Assembly (NCBI GenBank): GCA_016926155.1
Contig: JAFGPC010000145.1
Span: 1-62,109, forward strand
From: Sedimentisphaerales bacterium
Lineage (GTDB): Bacteria; Planctomycetota; Phycisphaerae; Sedimentisphaerales; Anaerohalosphaeraceae
DNA length: 62,109 nucleotides
Direction: 5' to 3'
Notes under the pieces: generated by a model
What the model saw: only the letters and a program-made list of their open reading frames with translations
Told to the model about the DNA's origin: nothing
Databases searched by the model: none
Position numbers and translations under genes: made by a program
Part shown: piece by piece, positions 34,013 through 45,594 of the stretch
Layout of the letters: every line of letters starts with the position of its first letter
Position numbering within the stretch: position 1 is the stretch's first letter

Positions 34013-34250
34013 ATTCTTGCTCCGATAGAATCTTGGTGGGCAGTATTATCGCCCTATGTTCCATGCTTTCTGATTTTAAAGATAGATCAAAACATTGGAT
34101 TATATACTCACCAGCGGTCTTGATAAACCTTAAAATCACCCGAAAAATCAGCCTCTTTGATTCCGTAAAGGGGTGGTTATTTTCATGATTGCCCCTTTGT
34201 CTACCGATATTTACAACAGTTTCAAAGGCCATGCGAGTTGAAGAATTAGG

Positions 34251-34278
34251 TTGTGTATCCTTCGGCAATGGCTATAAT
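34251..34278 (+). promoter_or_regulatory. Sigma-70-type promoter for the tandem lipoprotein genes
   Basis: TTGTGT (34251-34256) and a perfect TATAAT (34273-34278) are 16 bases apart, 40 bases before the first lipoprotein start. The 305-base divergent gap between ilvD and this gene holds nothing else that I can recognise. Confidence 0.5.
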
Positions 34279-34317
34279 TTCCGGAATGCAAATGGATCTT
34301 TTTGGAAGGAGAAGACA

Positions 34318-35286
34318 ATGTCCCGAAATGTGATAGCAACGGTTATTGGCCTGGTTGGAGTTATGATCTTAACCGGTTGTGGAGCGTCCCAGGTCAACCT
34401 TGCCATGCAGTTTAAGGTCAACGATGTGGATACCTACCGTGTAACCACCGAGCAAATCAAAGATTACAAATTTGAGCAACCCAGCGAAGAACCGCCCAAA
34501 GTGACCGAAAATCAGTCGGCCACAGTCATATCAGTCGTTTTTGATCAGAGGGTTGACAACATCGATGCCAAAGGTAATGCGATTGCCGATATCACCGTCA
34601 AAGGATTGCAATATACCGTCACAGAAAAGGATGCAACCAAGTTTGATTTTGACAGCGCCCGCGAAGCCGACAAAAGCAAACCATTGGCCAAACTGGTCGG
34701 GGCAACATATAAAATCAATATCTCACCCGATGGAAGAGTTTCCGTTCTGGAAGCACAACAGGCCCGCAAGCTCCTGACCGGGGCCACAACTGATGCTAAG
34801 GTGGCATCCAATCTGTTCAAGGATGATACGATTATTCAAAGGCACGAGGTTCTGGCCCTCCCCAAAGGCGTACAAAGTACGGTAAAAGTCGGCAGCGCCT
34901 GGAGTGAAGTGGTCGCTTCTCCCCCCGGATTGCTGGCGCCCAAATCCTATGAGAAGGTGTATACTTTAAAGGAGATCGAAGGCGGCAAAGAATCCGGTAC
35001 CGCACAAGTGGTTATGACCGCGCAGGAAAGCGCTGTCCAGGCCGAAGGAGTGGCCAAGGATGCGCCCGGAATGGGTTTTATGGCCAAGATGTTCGACACC
35101 GAAGAAAGCTACAACGGATCAATGAAGTTTCATCTGGGCAGCGGTAAGGTCAGCGAATATATGGAAAAGCTGGCTGTACGATATATCGCCGCCGAATCAC
35201 CGGCCAACCAGAAACCGGATAAGGGTCCCGATACGCTGATCATGGGGCTGACATATACGGTTTCGGGACAGATGCTGACACAATAG
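34318..35286 (+). CDS. Lipoprotein of unknown function, first of a tandem pair
   Basis: The 322-residue protein has a lipoprotein signal with the lipobox LTGC (cysteine about residue 21). The mature part is a beta-rich domain: MQFKVNDVDTYRVTTEQIKD, IADITVKGLQYTV, LVGATYKINISPDGRVSVLEAQ and a C-terminal VSGQMLTQ. I do not recognise the family. The downstream gene has the same architecture, including LAGKTFTFKVSPTGKLADTTEM at the equivalent place, so the two are paralogs. AAGGAG precedes the chosen ATG at 34318; the frame opens 43 codons earlier without support. Confidence 0.72.
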   Translation: MSRNVIATVIGLVGVMILTGCGASQVNLAMQFKVNDVDTYRVTTEQIKDYKFEQPSEEPPKVTENQSATVISVVFDQRVDNIDAKGNAIADITVKGLQYTVTEKDATKFDFDSAREADKSKPLAKLVGATYKINISPDGRVSVLEAQQARKLLTGATTDAKVASNLFKDDTIIQRHEVLALPKGVQSTVKVGSAWSEVVASPPGLLAPKSYEKVYTLKEIEGGKESGTAQVVMTAQESAVQAEGVAKDAPGMGFMAKMFDTEESYNGSMKFHLGSGKVSEYMEKLAVRYIAAESPANQKPDKGPDTLIMGLTYTVSGQMLTQ

Positions 35287-35320
35287 GATTACATTGCCAA
35301 GGGCAGGGAAGGGGAAAACC

Positions 35321-36304
35321 GTGCGACATATTCTGACAATGACATCTCTGGCAGTCCTGGTTATTCTAACCGGTTGTCAGCCGGGTTCAACGACCGGAGA
35401 TAAGAACTTTCTGGTCCTCGAATTCAAGGAGGATCAACCTGTCACATACAAGGCCACTTCACAGCGAGAGATTTTGATCGAATTACTGGATGGGGAAGGC
35501 AAGCCTCAGCAAAACCAGTCACATAAGATGAGTGAACAGCTGGAGTTGGAACTGACCTTTCAGGCGAAAGAGGTAAACCTGTTCGGTCTGACCACTGTCC
35601 AGGCCACGGTGAATTCGGCCAAAGTAACACGTCAGGCCTTTCGCACACGGGGACCGGAACCGGCGGATATTACGGGAAAATTGGCCGGCAAGACATTTAC
35701 TTTTAAGGTGTCCCCCACGGGAAAGCTTGCCGACACGACCGAAATGGATGCTGCGATAAACGATTTTATTGAAAGCGGTTTTGTGACCCGTTCGGGACCG
35801 GTAAAGCGAATCAAGGACCCGGATATGATGGTGGATGTCGTCATGCTGATGCATCATCTTTGGGATCCGGTAGTGGCTATAAAAAATCCTTCCCGGGTAA
35901 AGATAGGAACGACATGGAACGTTGATCAACTCGTCCCACTTCCGTTTCCTCTGCCGATGATGCGCGAAACCAATTATGCTCTTGCCGAGGTGACCGAAGA
36001 AAACGGCCGCAAAGCGATCATAGACAGTTCCTTCGGCCTGACCGAGAATGAACCGGCCTATTGGCCCAAGGCATACCAGGAAGTGTTCAACCTGCGGGGA
36101 AGCCTCTTTGCCGTGCTTCGCAATTATCGGTTTGAATCCATCGAAGGTGAGGGAAAGGCCGTATTTGATATCGATCAGGGGATACTCGAAAAGGAGTCAC
36201 AGCAGTGGAAGCTTAAGGTTAAGGCCGATTTCATGCTTCCATTGGGCAACACACGACCCGTGATTTCCATCGATCAGAAGATCCATGTCGAACGTGTCCA
36301 GTAA
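35321..36304 (+). CDS. Lipoprotein of unknown function, second of a tandem pair
   Basis: The 327-residue protein starts at a GTG at 35321 preceded by GAAGGGGA and has the lipobox LTGC followed by QPGSTTGDK. It repeats the layout of its upstream paralog: an opening strand after the lipid anchor (FLVLEFKEDQPVTYKATSQ), a threonine-rich middle, the segment LAGKTFTFKVSPTGKL and a strand-rich C-terminus ending VISIDQKIHVERVQ. It would be anchored in a membrane and face the periplasm. Duplication followed by divergence is inferred. The HIT gene starts 24 bases later. Confidence 0.72.
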   Translation: MRHILTMTSLAVLVILTGCQPGSTTGDKNFLVLEFKEDQPVTYKATSQREILIELLDGEGKPQQNQSHKMSEQLELELTFQAKEVNLFGLTTVQATVNSAKVTRQAFRTRGPEPADITGKLAGKTFTFKVSPTGKLADTTEMDAAINDFIESGFVTRSGPVKRIKDPDMMVDVVMLMHHLWDPVVAIKNPSRVKIGTTWNVDQLVPLPFPLPMMRETNYALAEVTEENGRKAIIDSSFGLTENEPAYWPKAYQEVFNLRGSLFAVLRNYRFESIEGEGKAVFDIDQGILEKESQQWKLKVKADFMLPLGNTRPVISIDQKIHVERVQ

Positions 36305-36845: not shown

Positions 36846-37943
36846 ATGTCCGAGAAGCCGGTTCTGTATGCAGTAACGAGTTCTCAAAGTAAAGGTCGAG
36901 TCTATCCCCAGCCTCAACATTCTTATCGTACTGAATTCGAACGGGATCGGGACCGGATCATTCATTGCTCGGCGTTTCGAAGGTTGGAGGGGAAGACCCA
37001 GGTCTTTACGCCGGGATGGAATGAAAATTATCGCACTCGACTCACGCACAGCATCGAAGTGGCTCAAATCGGACGAACCATTGCCAAGGCTCTGGATCTG
37101 AACGAAAGCCTGACCGAGGCAATCTGTCTGGGGCACGATCTGGGGCACAGTCCGTTCGGCCATGCGGGTGAGAAAGTGCTGAATGAATTGATGTCGGATT
37201 TCGGTGGCTTTGAGCATAATCGCCAATCATTACGAATCGTGGATTGGCTCGAGCATCCTTATCCGGATTTTCCCGGATTGAATCTGATGTATGAAACACG
37301 GCTGGGTTTTGCACGGCATTATAGTCCATACGATCAGCCTGAAAGAGACAATTTCAAGGAGAGACAATGCACCCTGGAAGGGCAGGTCGCCAATGTGGCA
37401 GACCGCATTGCATACAACTGTCATGACCTGGAGGATGGATTGCGGGGCCGTTTGTTGAATGAAGAAAAACTTCGAGAAATCCGTCTTTGTGTAGAAGCGC
37501 AAAAGCGGATTGAAGCGGATCGTTTAACAGATCGGATCGTTCGGCAGACCCGAACGGCCAAGACGATCATCGACATGCTGGTGAGTGATGCGATCCAGAC
37601 AAGTCGCAATGCGATCGTAAAATCGGGTGTACAATCGGTTCGTGAAGTAGTAATGCGGAAAGAGCCGTTGGTTCAACTTGACAAATCCTCCGAAAAAAAA
37701 TTATGTGAACTGGAAGCGTTTCTTCTTGAAAGGATGTATCATCATCCTTCCATTATAGAGGTGACTGATAAAGTTGAGAAATGGATGAAATCTGTATTTG
37801 ACAAGCTGTGCAAGTCTCCGGATCAGATGCCTCGCTATTTTCAGTCGATGATTGAAAGCCAGGGATTGCAGCGAGTCGTGTGTGATTATATGGCGGGAAT
37901 GACAGATCGTTTTTGTCTGTCTCTTGTGGAAGAGAGATTATGA
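36846..37943 (+). CDS. dgt: dGTP triphosphohydrolase (HD superfamily)
   Basis: The 365-residue enzyme removes triphosphate from deoxynucleotides. Its HD metal site is seen in TRLTHSIEVAQ, CLGHDLGHSPFGHAGE and ADRIAYNCHDLEDG, and FRRLEGKTQVF matches the conserved N-terminal segment. The length fits the dGTPase-like type-2 subfamily. The ATG at 36846 follows the HIT stop by one base. Its stop overlaps the pgpA start (ATGA), which suggests coupling. Confidence 0.93.
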   Translation: MSEKPVLYAVTSSQSKGRVYPQPQHSYRTEFERDRDRIIHCSAFRRLEGKTQVFTPGWNENYRTRLTHSIEVAQIGRTIAKALDLNESLTEAICLGHDLGHSPFGHAGEKVLNELMSDFGGFEHNRQSLRIVDWLEHPYPDFPGLNLMYETRLGFARHYSPYDQPERDNFKERQCTLEGQVANVADRIAYNCHDLEDGLRGRLLNEEKLREIRLCVEAQKRIEADRLTDRIVRQTRTAKTIIDMLVSDAIQTSRNAIVKSGVQSVREVVMRKEPLVQLDKSSEKKLCELEAFLLERMYHHPSIIEVTDKVEKWMKSVFDKLCKSPDQMPRYFQSMIESQGLQRVVCDYMAGMTDRFCLSLVEERL

Positions 37944-38431
37944 AGAATTTCAGACGAGTGTTGACTTCTTGCTTTGGGTTGGGCTGGCTTCCGATCGCTC
38001 CAGGCACATGGGGTTCTTTGCCGCCGGTTGTGCTGTTTGCCGGGTTATCACTACTGAAAACGCCGCCTTGGTGTATCACGATTGCCATGACTGTCTTAGT
38101 TATTTTGGCTTCGTGGGGGTGCATAGCTTTTGCATCATCTGCCATCTCGGCTTGTGGGAAAGAAGATCCCGGGGAAGTAGTACTGGATGAAGTAGCCGGC
38201 CAGGCGATAACTTTTATGGTCATTCCTGCATTACCATCAGTCGGTTCTGTATGGATTATCGCAGCAGCGGGATTTTTGTCCTTTCGCTTTTTTGACATCC
38301 TTAAGTTATGGCCATGCAAGAGGTTAGAGAAATTCCCGGCCGGGTGGGGCATCCTGCTGGACGATCTTATGGCCGGGGTGTATGCTGCCGTAGTAGTCCA
38401 GTTGATTATCCGGCTATGGCTTATTGGATAG
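37940..38431 (+). CDS. pgpA: Phosphatidylglycerophosphatase A
   Basis: The 163-residue membrane enzyme makes phosphatidylglycerol from its phosphate. It has the motif GLGWLPIAPGTWGSLP near the start, VVLDEVAGQ with the metal-binding Asp and Glu, FRFFDILKLWP and GILLDDLMAGVYA. Three or four membrane helices are visible. The ATG at 37940 overlaps the dgt stop by four bases. It is a core phospholipid gene, together with cdsA further downstream. Confidence 0.93.
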   Translation: MKNFRRVLTSCFGLGWLPIAPGTWGSLPPVVLFAGLSLLKTPPWCITIAMTVLVILASWGCIAFASSAISACGKEDPGEVVLDEVAGQAITFMVIPALPSVGSVWIIAAAGFLSFRFFDILKLWPCKRLEKFPAGWGILLDDLMAGVYAAVVVQLIIRLWLIG

Positions 38432-38509: not shown

Positions 38510-41098
38510 ATGCCCGTTGAGACACTGGAAATAGGACAGACGCAGGAATTATCCATGGATCAGGACCACTCGATACAGATAGCTCAAAAACTGAGGCAGC
38601 GGTTTGACCATCTCAATTTACATCGCCCCGCCCGAGTGGTTCGGTATGAGCCGGGAGACGAACTGAGCTATAATATGTCCAGTGTGGAAGGGGATCAGAA
38701 GGCTTCGGTTCGATTGGTGATTGAGAAATTTGTCGGAGGAGGCTTTGCCGGACAGGTTTACCGAGTCAAAGTGCTTGGGATGGAAGCAGATTCCGGTCCA
38801 CTCGAGAGAATGGGTGGGATCGAAGTCAACAGCGTCTATGCCATGAAGATCCTGATTCCGCCATCGGGTTTTTCAGTCCTGTTTCGCAATTTTGTCTATT
38901 GGCTGGGTTTTCAAGGACCATTCCAGCTTCAAGTCAATCCGGAGGCCGCTCGAGCCGGAGCGATCTGGCAAAAGTTCATCCGCAGAGCCGCCCAAATCCG
39001 TTTTGGTGACGAATCCTGTATCAATGATATCCATGTTACCTTTGTTGATCCGATCCTGGGCAGTTGTGGGGAGTTGAGCGATTGGGTGGAGGGACGAACA
39101 TGGCGGCTGGAGGTGGATGAAAATCTGGATACCCTCAAACGCTGGAAAAAAGACAAGCCATACCAGCCGGATCGACTGGGTTCACCGGAGTACCGATCCA
39201 AGAAAAAGTTTATGGCCGAGTTGGTCACTTTATTGTATGATGTGGGGGCCCATGAGTTTGCCCGGCAGTACGAATGGTCCACCTGCAAAAGTCAGCCGAA
39301 TGCCTTGAAACGGACGGAAACGAACCAGGATCCGGTGGCTGGATTGATTGCGGTCGATTTTCGGGCAGGACTGGCCCTGCTGCCGTTTTTACCTATGAGT
39401 CCAGGTGACTTCAAGCTGATCTGGCAGGGACTCAAACGAGGTTCCCTGGTACAGTTTGACCGAGGCAATCTTGATACGCTCGAGGCCTTTGTGAATACAC
39501 ATCGAGAGGCCTTTTCAGACATGCTGCCGCTTCTGGAGGAATTAAAGCAATGTGAGGAAATCTATCGCAATTCTCTGCCCGATGTGACACACAATCACCT
39601 GAGGTTATTCTATAGCGGGAAATTGTGGCGAACCATACTGGATAGTGCTGTCACCGGATGGAAGGTGCGTAATCTTGTCGACGAAGCCGGCGAACGAAAA
39701 CTGCGAGACAGTCGGTTCAAGACAATCGTATTTCTCCTGTTGGGATTGATTCCGTTCCTGGGCAGGGCTCTGCGGAAGAACTGGTGCCATGCGGCATGGA
39801 GAAGCCATTATAAATCGATGCTGGGTAGTTGGGACTATTTCAAGCGGGCTGTCAAAGGCCGCATCGCCGAACGGGTATTGGCATGGTATCGGGCAGGACG
39901 GATCGGGCCTGAGCAGGTTCAGAGGATCGCCTTCAATGTCCGCTCTTTTATGTCTCATAAACTTCTTTCGATAATTACCTGGGCCGGATTGCATCGGTTC
40001 ATCACGGACGGGCAGGTTCGAAGGGAAAAGCTCTATATCATTTTTGTTCGGCCGATTCGACTCTATTTTAATTCCGAACTGCGCGAGCAATGGATGCGCG
40101 ACATGGTGCAGGAAGGTCGGCGTAAACATATTCTAACCGATGAAGATGCCGCTACGATTATTTCACGTCTAGATGAACCTTATATCCAGCGATATCTGAT
40201 TAGCTTGGTTGTGCATCTATTAACCCTTCCGATTACTCAAGTTGTATCTGTTCTGATTGCAACAATCTACTGTTATATTCATCGAGGCGAACCGAATGCA
40301 TGGGCGGTTGGATTGGGGATTATCGGATTATTTCAGGTGGTTCCAATTTCTCCTGGCTCGTTCTGCCGTGGATTATATACAACGATCCTGGCGATTTATG
40401 ATCGCAACTTTAAAGACTACAATATTGCCCTGTTCCTGAGCTACTTCAAATATGTGGGGTATCTTGCCTTTCCGATCCAGATGACGCATCATTATCCAAC
40501 GATTTCGAGGTTTATGGCGGGGCACTGGGCGACGGATGCCGTGCATATCGTACCGGTTTTTGGAGAACGGGGTGCGCTGTTGGAACATTGGGTATTTTGC
40601 CTATTTTACAATTGGCCGCTGACAATCCGCCGCCGGATGCAGGCCCGGGCTCAGGTTCGCGCTTTACAGTCTCCAAGGTATTTCCATATCCCCTTCTTTG
40701 CAATTCTTGGAGCGATAGTATTGGCAATTGCTCATTCAATCGCTTTGAATCATGGTCTGGTGCCGTCCCGTGATAATAAATGGTTTCTGACCGGTTTGTG
40801 GTATGTGATGCTCACAACGCCGGTTTTAGCCGGCTGGGGATTGACCGTATTTGCCGGTGGATTATCTCTAGGCCGCAGGATCATCGCCTCTCCGATGTGC
40901 GGGGTGGTTCTCGGTGTGCTGTACTCGATTGCCGCCGCCGTTCTTGAGGATCGTTCTCAGATAGAATCTACGGCTTTCTGGGTACCCATGATCTGGCGGA
41001 GCTTCTTTTTCACGGTTTTTTGCACAATAGGGGCACTCGTTACCGAATTGCTTTTACCCGATCCAAACATTGCCGTTGAAGAAAAAGTTGGCCTGTAA
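38510..41098 (+). CDS. ABC1/UbiB-like pseudokinase fused to a multi-pass membrane domain
   Basis: The 862-residue protein starts with a cytoplasmic domain that resembles an atypical protein kinase: glycine-rich loop GGGFAGQVY (residues 76-84), a lysine in YAMKI (K113), and CKSQPNALK (about 259-267) followed by LIAVDFRAGLALL (D283). The last two align by order with DPHPGN and LLDFG of the ABC1/UbiB family, but the first aspartate and histidine of DPHPGN are lost, so catalysis is doubtful. From about residue 400 on there are nine or so membrane helices, with charged loops such as SPGSFCRGLY. I do not recognise that membrane family. The ATG at 38510 has AAAGG upstream. The fold call is inference; the coding status is sure. 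Confidence 0.6.
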   Translation: MPVETLEIGQTQELSMDQDHSIQIAQKLRQRFDHLNLHRPARVVRYEPGDELSYNMSSVEGDQKASVRLVIEKFVGGGFAGQVYRVKVLGMEADSGPLERMGGIEVNSVYAMKILIPPSGFSVLFRNFVYWLGFQGPFQLQVNPEAARAGAIWQKFIRRAAQIRFGDESCINDIHVTFVDPILGSCGELSDWVEGRTWRLEVDENLDTLKRWKKDKPYQPDRLGSPEYRSKKKFMAELVTLLYDVGAHEFARQYEWSTCKSQPNALKRTETNQDPVAGLIAVDFRAGLALLPFLPMSPGDFKLIWQGLKRGSLVQFDRGNLDTLEAFVNTHREAFSDMLPLLEELKQCEEIYRNSLPDVTHNHLRLFYSGKLWRTILDSAVTGWKVRNLVDEAGERKLRDSRFKTIVFLLLGLIPFLGRALRKNWCHAAWRSHYKSMLGSWDYFKRAVKGRIAERVLAWYRAGRIGPEQVQRIAFNVRSFMSHKLLSIITWAGLHRFITDGQVRREKLYIIFVRPIRLYFNSELREQWMRDMVQEGRRKHILTDEDAATIISRLDEPYIQRYLISLVVHLLTLPITQVVSVLIATIYCYIHRGEPNAWAVGLGIIGLFQVVPISPGSFCRGLYTTILAIYDRNFKDYNIALFLSYFKYVGYLAFPIQMTHHYPTISRFMAGHWATDAVHIVPVFGERGALLEHWVFCLFYNWPLTIRRRMQARAQVRALQSPRYFHIPFFAILGAIVLAIAHSIALNHGLVPSRDNKWFLTGLWYVMLTTPVLAGWGLTVFAGGLSLGRRIIASPMCGVVLGVLYSIAAAVLEDRSQIESTAFWVPMIWRSFFFTVFCTIGALVTELLLPDPNIAVEEKVGL

Positions 41099-41309: not shown

Positions 41310-42062
41310 ATGGCCAATAGCTATAGTTCACTGTGCGACGATTTTTTCGTCGATCTGCACGTTAATACGGAACTGGACCTGCCGACGGAGCGGGATACAA
41401 TACTGCATTTTTTTGAGCGTATCGAAAAGCAGTTTCCAGGGATGGGGAATTTTCGTCGTCGAGACAACGGCGATTTCAACCTGGAAGAAGAACGCGAAGG
41501 GCAGCGCTACCGCTGGATTACCTTGGAAATGGATCGGCTCTGTGTCGGCTGCGCCAATCCGCTTGTGATGGAGGATGCGTACAGCCTGCAGCGGACGGCA
41601 CTGGAATTATCGCCGTATATGCTGGGAATCAACCACCTGGATATTGATTCGTTGGATGTGACCTTTACAATGGATTTTGACTTCCAGGGCAACCACGACG
41701 AGGTAATTTCCGAAGCCTTATATGGCAACAGTGCATTTTCTTCTTTACTGGAAATTCCGAAAGCCCGGCCATTGGGATTTTCGCCCAGTGCGATTGTGTC
41801 GTTGAGCCAGGATTGCTATTGCCAGGCTCGGATTGCGATTGAGTCAAGAACCACGGTATACGAGGTTCGTAACGGCAAATTCAAACCGGATGAGCCGATC
41901 AGCCTTTATTTCACTGTCCGGCGGTATCCTCGTCCGGGGGAAAGGTTCGATGCACCCAAGTCATTCGACATGCAATGCCGCATCGCCGAAGACCTGATGG
42001 CCGAAAAAATCTTTCCGAGTTTCGCCGCGCCCTTGATAAATGCGATTGCCCAGAGGAGGTAG
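41310..42062 (+). CDS. Uncharacterised 250-residue protein
   Basis: I do not recognise this family. The protein is soluble, acidic and alpha/beta, starting SSLCDDFFVDLHVNTELDLP and containing FTVRRYPRPGERFDAPKSF near the end. It has conserved-looking cysteines in CVGCANPL and DCYCQAR. GAGGA lies before the ATG at 41310. The preceding 210-base gap contains a perfect palindrome GGAACGTTCC (41228-41237) and a second GGAACGT at 41294, possibly an operator. A small membrane gene follows 41 bases later. Confidence 0.6.
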   Translation: MANSYSSLCDDFFVDLHVNTELDLPTERDTILHFFERIEKQFPGMGNFRRRDNGDFNLEEEREGQRYRWITLEMDRLCVGCANPLVMEDAYSLQRTALELSPYMLGINHLDIDSLDVTFTMDFDFQGNHDEVISEALYGNSAFSSLLEIPKARPLGFSPSAIVSLSQDCYCQARIAIESRTTVYEVRNGKFKPDEPISLYFTVRRYPRPGERFDAPKSFDMQCRIAEDLMAEKIFPSFAAPLINAIAQRR

Positions 42063-42103
42063 GGGGTGTATGGGTATCGGGGAATCAATGTTAGGAGGTA
42101 TAA

Positions 42104-42562
42104 ATGGCTATTATTGCACCGTTGAGCAAGTATAAGAGAGGTAACTTCAAGATCGTTATTGCCGTGTTAATCGGTTTAGCCGTGTGGTTCGCTTACGATG
42201 GGTATCTCAACAAGAGTTTTATCGAAAAACACACTCAGGAGGATGGAAAGCCGGACATTACACTTGCAACCAATAGACATATACCGCCTTTTCTGGCCGC
42301 AGCGGCCATTCTGATGGGCGTATGGTATTTTGCAGTCAAAGAAAAAAAAGTGATTGCCGATGAATCGGCGTTAATTGCAGGCAAAATCCGTATTCCATTT
42401 GATTCGATAGAACGAATTGACAAGACGCATTTTGATTCGAATGGATACTTTATTGTTACCTATAAAAAGGAAACCGGGGGGGAAGCTGAACTTCGGCTAA
42501 ACGAGCGAACCTATGATAATCTTCCGGCCATTCTGGAAGAACTGATCCGCCAGATTACCTGA
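42104..42562 (+). CDS. Small membrane protein with PH-like domain
   Basis: The 152-residue protein has two membrane helices (about 17-34 and 63-80), followed by a 70-residue domain with the strand pattern KVIADESALIAGKIRIPFDSIERID and YFIVTYKKETGGEAELRL, like the bacterial PH (bPH2) fold. A nearly perfect Shine-Dalgarno (TTAGGAGG) lies six bases before the ATG. It follows the unknown 250-residue gene and precedes purA by 40 bases. The function is not known. Confidence 0.62.
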   Translation: MAIIAPLSKYKRGNFKIVIAVLIGLAVWFAYDGYLNKSFIEKHTQEDGKPDITLATNRHIPPFLAAAAILMGVWYFAVKEKKVIADESALIAGKIRIPFDSIERIDKTHFDSNGYFIVTYKKETGGEAELRLNERTYDNLPAILEELIRQIT

Positions 42563-43941: not shown

Positions 43942-44718
43942 TTGAATCGGAGTTTTTCTGAAAAACGAGAAAAAACCGCCGAGCGATTGGGAATCGAGAC
44001 CGATCATGTGCCGCGTCATATTGCGATTATTATGGACGGTAATGGCCGCTGGGCGCAGCGACAAAACCTCCCCCGATTCCGAGGCCACGAAAAAGGCGCC
44101 AAGACCGTCGAAGAGATCGCCAAATATTGCGTAGATGTAGGGCTGGAATGTCTGAGCTTGTATTCCTTCAGCATGCAGAACTGGAAACGACCCAAAGAGG
44201 AAATCGACTTTTTGATGTTTCTGTACAGTTCCTACCTGAAGGGCATTCAGCCGACCCTGATGGAAAACCATGTTCGGCTTGTGCATCTGGGTCGTCGGGA
44301 TCGTTTGCCACAGGATGTGCTGGATGCGTTGGATGATACTCTCGCAGTAACGCAGAATAATACGGGCATGGCTTTGGGGCTGGCTTTGAATTACGGTTCG
44401 CGATCCGAAATCGTGGATGCGGTGTCCCGGATTGCCCGGGAATGTAAAGAAGGGGGTCTTTTACCGGAAGATATTGATGAAGACTGTATAAGCAGACATC
44501 TTTACACTGCCGACTTGCTCGATCCGGATCTCTTGATTCGTACTTCGGGTGAACTGCGGATCAGTAACTTTCTGCTTTGGCAAATCTCATACACGGAATT
44601 CTATGTGACGGATACGCTTTGGCCCGATTTTTCCACCGACTCGATCGACGAAGCAATTTTGACATATGCCGCTCGTTCCCGTCGTTTCGGGGATATCAAA
44701 GCGCAACCGGCAAGCTGA
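43942..44718 (+). CDS. uppS: Isoprenyl transferase (undecaprenyl diphosphate synthase type)
   Basis: The 258-residue cis-prenyltransferase makes the C55 lipid carrier for cell-wall and lipopolysaccharide units. Signatures are HIAIIMDGNGRWAQ (Asp and Gly loop), LSLYSFSMQNWKRP, NYGSRSEIVDAV and LIRTSGELRISNFLLWQ. The start is a TTG at 43942 with AAGGA upstream. cdsA starts nine bases later, the usual envelope-lipid neighbourhood. Confidence 0.95.
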   Translation: MNRSFSEKREKTAERLGIETDHVPRHIAIIMDGNGRWAQRQNLPRFRGHEKGAKTVEEIAKYCVDVGLECLSLYSFSMQNWKRPKEEIDFLMFLYSSYLKGIQPTLMENHVRLVHLGRRDRLPQDVLDALDDTLAVTQNNTGMALGLALNYGSRSEIVDAVSRIARECKEGGLLPEDIDEDCISRHLYTADLLDPDLLIRTSGELRISNFLLWQISYTEFYVTDTLWPDFSTDSIDEAILTYAARSRRFGDIKAQPAS

Positions 44719-44727
44719 TTTCTACTC

Positions 44728-45594
44728 ATGCTTAGATATCGACTTATTTTCGGCACATTGATGGTGGTCTTGTTTGTTGGCCTGATCCTTCTGGATGGAT
44801 ATCTGGATGGTTCCCTCACACTTCAAATACCCGACAAGACGCCTCAGGGGACGATTCTTTGTGTCTTGGTAGCTTTGCTGGCATTGCCTGCAATGTGGGA
44901 GATGAAAGGACTAGTGAAGACTACAGGAGCTTGTCTCTGGCTGCCGGTTGCGATTCCGGCGGCTGTTTTATTGGCGACCAGTTGGTATTGGGCCCAATTT
45001 TCTTCGTCATCCGGCAGGTTTCTGTCGCTGCATCTGGCGGGAGTACTAGCCGGGACATTATTGCTTCTTTTTCTTTTTCAGGCCCGACGTTATGGGACCA
45101 GAGGGACAATTCTTAATTGCGGGGCGAATTATTTTTCGATTATCTATCTGGGGCTTTTCAGCAGTTTTGTATTGGCCATTCGAATCGAATACGGGCCGTG
45201 GTTTCTTTTATTGTTCATTTTTACCGTAAAGTCTTCTGATACAGGAGCTTACGCGATTGGAAGGTGGCTGGGGAAACATCCGTTCTCCCCTTCTATCAGC
45301 CCAAAAAAGACTTGGGAAGGCGTTATGGGGGGGATATTCTTTGCTGTCGTGACAGCCATCCTATTTAGTGTCTTTTGTGGTATAATGGATTGGTGGCTAA
45401 GTATCCTGTTCGGGATGTTGTTTGCTTTGCTTGGGCAACTGGGCGATTTGGCCGAATCCATGATAAAGAGAGATGCTCAGCAAAAGGATTCCGCTGGCCA
45501 TGTGCCGGGATTTGGCGGCGTGCTGGATGTCATCGATTCGCCCCTGGCGACAGCGCCGCTGGCATATCTGTTTTTTGCTGTGTTCTGTCGATAA
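44728..45594 (+). CDS. cdsA: Phosphatidate cytidylyltransferase
   Basis: The 288-residue integral membrane enzyme makes CDP-diacylglycerol. It has about eight membrane helices and the family signature near the end: SISPKKTWEGVMGG and DLAESMIKRDAQQKDS with FGGVLDVIDSPL. It is coupled to uppS upstream and to phoH downstream (10 bases). The genes dxr and rseP that often follow are not here. Confidence 0.94.
   Translation: MLRYRLIFGTLMVVLFVGLILLDGYLDGSLTLQIPDKTPQGTILCVLVALLALPAMWEMKGLVKTTGACLWLPVAIPAAVLLATSWYWAQFSSSSGRFLSLHLAGVLAGTLLLLFLFQARRYGTRGTILNCGANYFSIIYLGLFSSFVLAIRIEYGPWFLLLFIFTVKSSDTGAYAIGRWLGKHPFSPSISPKKTWEGVMGGIFFAVVTAILFSVFCGIMDWWLSILFGMLFALLGQLGDLAESMIKRDAQQKDSAGHVPGFGGVLDVIDSPLATAPLAYLFFAVFCR

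Follow-up and report, generated by a model that had tools for sequence, protein, structure and literature searches.

The window analysed here (the whole stretch of DNA, 62,109 nucleotides from a Sedimentisphaerales bacterium) carries an intact 862-aa reading frame, here called X, which is a genuine gene and raises the question of what a protein with a kinase-like domain and a polytopic membrane domain is doing at this locus. The local gene order is pgpA, X, a gene for a 250-aa protein, a gene for a 152-aa protein, purA, uppS and cdsA, where purA is named from its sequence and pgpA, uppS and cdsA are backed by Pfam matches.

37913..38431, + strand: pgpA, directly upstream of X (PF04608, E 2.6e-38)
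38510..41098, + strand: X, kinase-like domain and polytopic membrane domain (open reading frame, 862 aa, ATG start)
41310..42062, + strand: conserved 250-aa protein, right border of the slot filled by X or uppP (same place beside either)
42104-42562: conserved 152-aa protein, beyond the 250-aa gene
43942..44718, + strand: uppS, undecaprenyl-diphosphate synthase (PF01255, E 1e-80)
44728..45594, + strand: cdsA-like cytidylyltransferase (PF01148, E 1e-48)

In the window uppS is the fourth gene after X, and it also follows X in many syntenic loci. Its product makes C55-PP, which must be dephosphorylated, so the window's genome should both produce C55-PP and need an activity that dephosphorylates it. 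The two conserved proteins at 41310-42562 have no Pfam match, and adjoin the slot whether X or uppP fills it. At 34189-36304 there are two tandem lipoprotein-like genes, probably paralogous and with weak matches to DUF6263; the pair is kept upstream of pgpA in many relatives.

Where X is lacking, relatives carry uppP (bacA) between pgpA and the 250-aa gene, giving a shared slot of the form pgpA-[X or uppP]-...-purA-uppS-cdsA. Wherever the locus was traced in BacA genomes, uppP adjoins pgpA or is fused to it, at the position held by X in the window; PgpA-UppP fusion proteins are seen at L268:1959-3287 (-), L269:2008-3348 (+) and L232:1270-2625 (+). Because of this sharing, X and BacA were compared genome-wide, using matches to X and the PF02673 profile for BacA in the same 59 related Planctomycetota genomes. 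X is matched in 37 of them, mostly at 53-61% identity, a range that holds across orders and phyla. Intact X alone occurs in 36 genomes, BacA alone in 20, both in none and neither in three, which are drafts (Fisher p = 6e-13, a value that ignores relatedness); most of the genomes are draft MAGs, and calls of absence carry error accordingly. BacA is absent from G000, the window's own genome. The exchange recurs within single genera: in g13, G033 has BacA while G012, G021, G029, G031 and G034 have X; in g16, G015 has X while G023 and G026 have BacA; and in g17, G035 has BacA while G045 and G053 have X. Since such swaps occur inside these genera, and in several families (f1, f2, f5, f7), relatedness is not an easy explanation of the exclusion.

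The BacA genome G023 also holds a remnant of X, a 250-aa reading frame (L268:3287-4039, - strand) directly upstream of its PgpA-UppP fusion. About residues 450-520 of X (read by eye) are joined there to the C-terminal helices (match E 1.5e-10), and the kinase half and the core are gone. To judge from its sequence, this looks like a decayed X and would be a telling intermediate in the X/uppP swap. The close relative G026 has a PgpA-UppP fusion and no X remnant. X and BacA (PF02673) have in common the slot next to pgpA, reciprocal presence and an integral membrane nature, whereas BacA is about 270 aa long with no kinase-like domain and X about 840 aa with no PF02673 match. In genomic terms, X replaces UppP.

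When one genome per species was scanned, at least 314 loci encoding relatives of X were found in about ten phyla, and 80 of these loci were kept for further work. Going by the names in record titles, the carriers are Planctomycetota (mainly Phycisphaerae/Sedimentisphaerales), Desulfobacterales and other Thermodesulfobacteriota, Armatimonadota, Latescibacterota, Aminicenantes, Cloacimonadota, Chitinivibrionales, Gemmatimonadetes and Deferribacteres. A quick tree of X mixes the phyla, with at least three label changes for Planctomycetota even on well-supported branches; this is consistent with transfer between phyla, and binned genomes hold some misplaced contigs. Of 40 genomes that gave X loci in the species scan, 38 have no BacA. 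One exception, G444, has a genuine BacA some 32 kb away from X on a MAG chromosome (C1; L271, L272) with several 100-base runs of N, and the other, G472, has a BacA scrap of 26 positions, below the cut-off. G444 is the only genome with X and a full BacA, which has dTDP-rhamnose genes and clpX/lon around it. Of the 40, 26 are not labelled Planctomycetota; 25 of these 26 have no BacA, and X lies there in unrelated neighbourhoods (the frequency of BacA in X-negative genomes was measured in Planctomycetota only). A function for X based on its partners was set aside, since outside Planctomycetota no gene is a constant neighbour of X.

The exclusion does not extend to the most distant relatives. All four genomes of f91, f77 and f37 (about 46-55% identity to X) are without BacA. 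The divergent relatives f57 and f29 are 35-40% identical to X (f57 about 40%) and have no C-terminal helices, and a sister family, B, of about 500-600 aa from other Planctomycetota, is homologous to X over the kinase-like and membrane parts (hhalign probability 98, E 9e-14); BacA is present in 2/2 f57, 1/2 f29 and 14/14 family B genomes, and in 17 of 18 Planctomycetota controls with neither X nor B. As these divergent groups coexist with BacA, it is canonical X that shows the replacement, and not the superfamily as a whole. Two of the divergent X relatives (L028:1-3603, - strand; L030:1399-4959, + strand) have frames that continue into more membrane segments and a part resembling an SGNH hydrolase. 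Across 246 sampled Planctomycetota genomes, the membrane half always came together with the kinase half. Family B genes lie beside a type III polyketide synthase, an ICMT-type methyltransferase, an AMP ligase and an FAD enzyme at L146:3359-9951 and L145:1976-9526, a cluster of phenolic-lipid type that occurs in two f64 genomes in two different arrangements. In f41 the family B gene lies upstream of genes named by eye as PseB-like and otherwise pseudaminic-acid-like (L147:8826-11619, L148:2316-5266). These settings offer no more than a lead, that several different membrane lipids may be targets of the superfamily.

The most probable answer to the question, in our judgment, is that X is a replacement for UppP/BacA that converts C55-PP to C55-P, a third type of UppP unrelated to BacA and PAP2, where the chemistry is what we infer. 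The preliminary description thought a role in lipid metabolism plausible, with ubiquinone precursors as the example; the lipid role stands, while the replacement of uppP by X points to undecaprenyl (di)phosphate in place of ubiquinone. What speaks against X as a UppP is the one genome with both X and BacA (G444), the retention of BacA in f57, in one of two f29 genomes and in all 14 family B genomes, and the kinase fold, which is unexpected for a phosphatase. The parts of the protein are as follows.

38510..39754, + strand: kinase-like domain, residues 1-415 (AlphaFold2 pLDDT 80, pTM 0.81)
38735..38761, + strand: glycine-rich loop GGGFAGQVY, residues 76-84 (near-invariant in 81 homologues)
38846..38848, + strand: beta3 lysine K113, in AMKIL (>97% in 81 homologues, kept in family B)
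39275..39301, + strand: degenerate catalytic loop W-S-T-C-K-S-Q-P-N, residues 256-264 (Asn kept)
39356..39370, + strand: DFRAG, residues 283-287, equivalent of DFG, Asp kept (D283 100% in 81 homologues)
40082..40645, + strand: conserved membrane core, residues 525-712, with SPGSxxRGLY, KYxGYLAFPIQM and PVFGERGALLEH (81 homologues)
40673..41059, + strand: variable C-terminal four-helix membrane module (hydropathy)

Residues 1-415 are predicted to form a two-lobed protein-kinase-like fold, as the preliminary description had supposed of the N-terminal part: with this model, Foldseek gives a probability of 1.00 to protein kinases (best E 2.3e-4), and VIA a Z of 11.4 and an rmsd of 3.4 over 163 residues to HIPK2. 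G76, G78, G81, K113, K260-S-Q-P-N264, D283, R285 and G287 are invariant or above 97% in 81 homologues, and residues 250-264 (FARQYEW.TCKSQPN) are near-identical in all of them. The GxGxxGxV pattern is also common to the sister families, and the residue set for Mg-ATP (GxGxxGxV, beta3 Lys, catalytic-loop Asn, DFG Asp) is present in both X and family B, which retains the Asp equivalent to D283. Marks of an active canonical kinase are missing in the 81 homologues and in family B: there is no HRD Asp, and no conserved alphaC Glu in segment 144-165. The position of that Asp, at N-5, is Cys in the window's X, Cys, Trp, Leu or Ala among X relatives and Pro in family B. By its motifs the kinase-like half is thus inferred to be a pseudokinase, and should still bind Mg-nucleotide.

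For the membrane half, hydropathy averaged over the X family gives about seven or eight membrane segments. They comprise a short hydrophobic segment at 405-418, two to three in the core (567-584, 600-620 and a weak one at 642-652) and four clear C-terminal segments at about 727-744, 762-780, 791-809 and 826-845, the last four being missing from the f57 and f29 relatives. The protein is therefore polytopic as first described, with a count somewhat below the "about nine" helices proposed. Conservation is superfamily-wide at R525, V568, G616xxxR620xxY623, G650, P655xQ657, P682xxG685 and E692, and specific to canonical X at R514, Q577, N638, K647 and H679. The model of residues 380-862 is helical (pLDDT 87, pTM 0.62). 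The early impression that this half matches nothing known held when the halves were searched separately: X and its halves gave nothing usable in Pfam, NCBIfam or the PDB sequences, none of the 66 or 63 family members scanned has a Pfam family above cut-off, and a fold search of the membrane half against the PDB gave no match at E <0.5. Two candidates were discarded, NCBIfam PRK10578 (E 0.0044), the match to which sits in the variable C-terminal helices, and an FtsX/LolC-like match (Z 9.5) that covers only the variable four-helix end and scores below what helical bundles reach by chance.

If X acts as a UppP, the membrane core, with R525, H569, R620, R667, E692 and H693, would bind the polyprenyl pyrophosphate, and the kinase-like half would bind ATP or ADP, coupled to the C55-PP in the core. 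The nucleotide-bound half could either drive a conformational step or join in phosphoryl transfer. Conversion of C55-PP to C55-P would then allow the lipid carrier of cell-wall synthesis to be made and reused.

Among other explanations, the one that survives best, and is still unlikely, is that X carries C55-PP or C55-P from one side of the membrane to the other, or serves as a pseudokinase that regulates the lipid cycle, while an unknown phosphatase acts and the loss of BacA follows a changed topology of recycling. The large polytopic domain and the pseudokinase-like catalytic loop would suit it, and in Mycobacterium tuberculosis the MviN/MurJ protein is a membrane protein of peptidoglycan synthesis and the lipid-carrier cycle with an attached pseudokinase, ActPs3 (PMC12599244). 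ActPs3, however, is C-terminal, has all its catalytic motifs degraded and does not bind ATP (PMC12599244), whereas the kinase-like domain of X is N-terminal and keeps the Lys, Asn and Asp, and X has no match to the Pfam family of that flippase. This explanation calls for a further unknown protein in each X genome without PAP2, and the simple exchange of X for uppP, one gene for one in a single slot, points to the phosphatase step itself.

Quite unlikely, in our estimate, is a variant of the UppP reading in which X is an energy-conserving recycler of the lipid carrier, its kinase-like half moving the terminal phosphate of C55-PP to ADP to give C55-P and ATP. Known UppPs hydrolyse the terminal phosphate bond of C55-PP. 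Transfer to ADP would suit X in that the Lys, Asn and Asp are kept and the HRD base is lost, since a phosphate-phosphate reaction needs no general base, and many X-carrying groups are usually regarded as anaerobic or energy-limited.

The papers found name only BacA and PAP2 as families of C55-PP phosphatases (PMC4641660, PMC12401180). A search of an open-access subset of the literature turned up no description of X or of a third family of UppP, though this says little about whether one exists. It is very improbable that PAP2 phosphatases supply the UppP activity while X, unrelated to it, merely happens to sit in the uppP slot. PAP2 is present in 9 of 21 tested X relatives and in many X genomes of other phyla, but the other 12 have neither PAP2 nor BacA, many of them being 98-99% complete; the relatives with X do not carry PAP2 more often than those with BacA, and in other phyla X lies outside the uppP slot and BacA is still missing. 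Both BacA and PAP2 are absent from 21 X genomes (G000, G001, G012, G015, G016, G021, G024, G027, G029, G030, G044, G048, G440, G442, G443, G449, G451, G469, G475, G476 and G478), in which X is the sole visible candidate for a UppP; G000 has no match to PF01569 anywhere. The PAP2 phosphatases of C55-PP (PgpB, YbjG, BcrC, HupA) share with X the reaction proposed for it, and differ in architecture, with no PAP2 profile match in X in the Pfam scan of family members.

Membership of the ABC1/UbiB family had been proposed from the order of glycine-rich loop, lysine, KSQPN and DFRAG. The order itself is conserved in 81 homologues; it is no proof of ABC1, as the same order is general to all kinases. 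The proposed change in the DPHPGN catalytic residues is confirmed, with Cys for the Asp at N-5 and Asn264 kept. The Pfam ABC1 profile (PF03109) finds six other places in G000 and misses X, and an hmmscan of 66 N-domains gave no match to it above the curated cut-off. KxGQ is absent from residues 1-75 of X, and the DPHPGN Asp is replaced in KSQPN, whereas the local ABC1 proteins do carry DPHPGN. Profile-profile comparison of X with the local ABC1 proteins aligned only a few N-lobe residues, and comparison with ABC1 and Pkinase alignments from relatives gave N-lobe matches only, at low probability. COQ8/UbiB structures are not among the fold matches listed for the kinase-like half, and X may yet resemble them. 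ABC1/UbiB/COQ8 proteins share with X a kinase-like fold, a GQVYR-type loop and an association with membrane lipids, and differ in that the membrane part of X is far larger and conserved. That X is an ABC1/UbiB-type atypical kinase or ATPase for isoprenoid quinones or other lipids, with the absence of BacA a coincidence of lineage, is the least probable explanation of all, for the fold, the loop and the enzymes beside the distant family B in two genomes stand against the missed profile and motifs, and against repeated same-genus BacA swaps, in several families and with a cross-phylum association, that are not lineage effects.

Peptidoglycan and most surface glycans depend on the dephosphorylation of C55-PP, an essential step. 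If X is indeed a UppP, it would be a third family of C55-PP phosphatases besides BacA and PAP2, of unrelated architecture with a kinase-like fold and spread over about ten phyla. It would account for the survival of many uncultured bacteria that have neither BacA nor PAP2, would assign a concrete and testable lipid substrate to a domain of pseudokinase type, and would bear on antibiotics aimed at the C55-PP step, such as bacitracin, in the bacteria that carry it.
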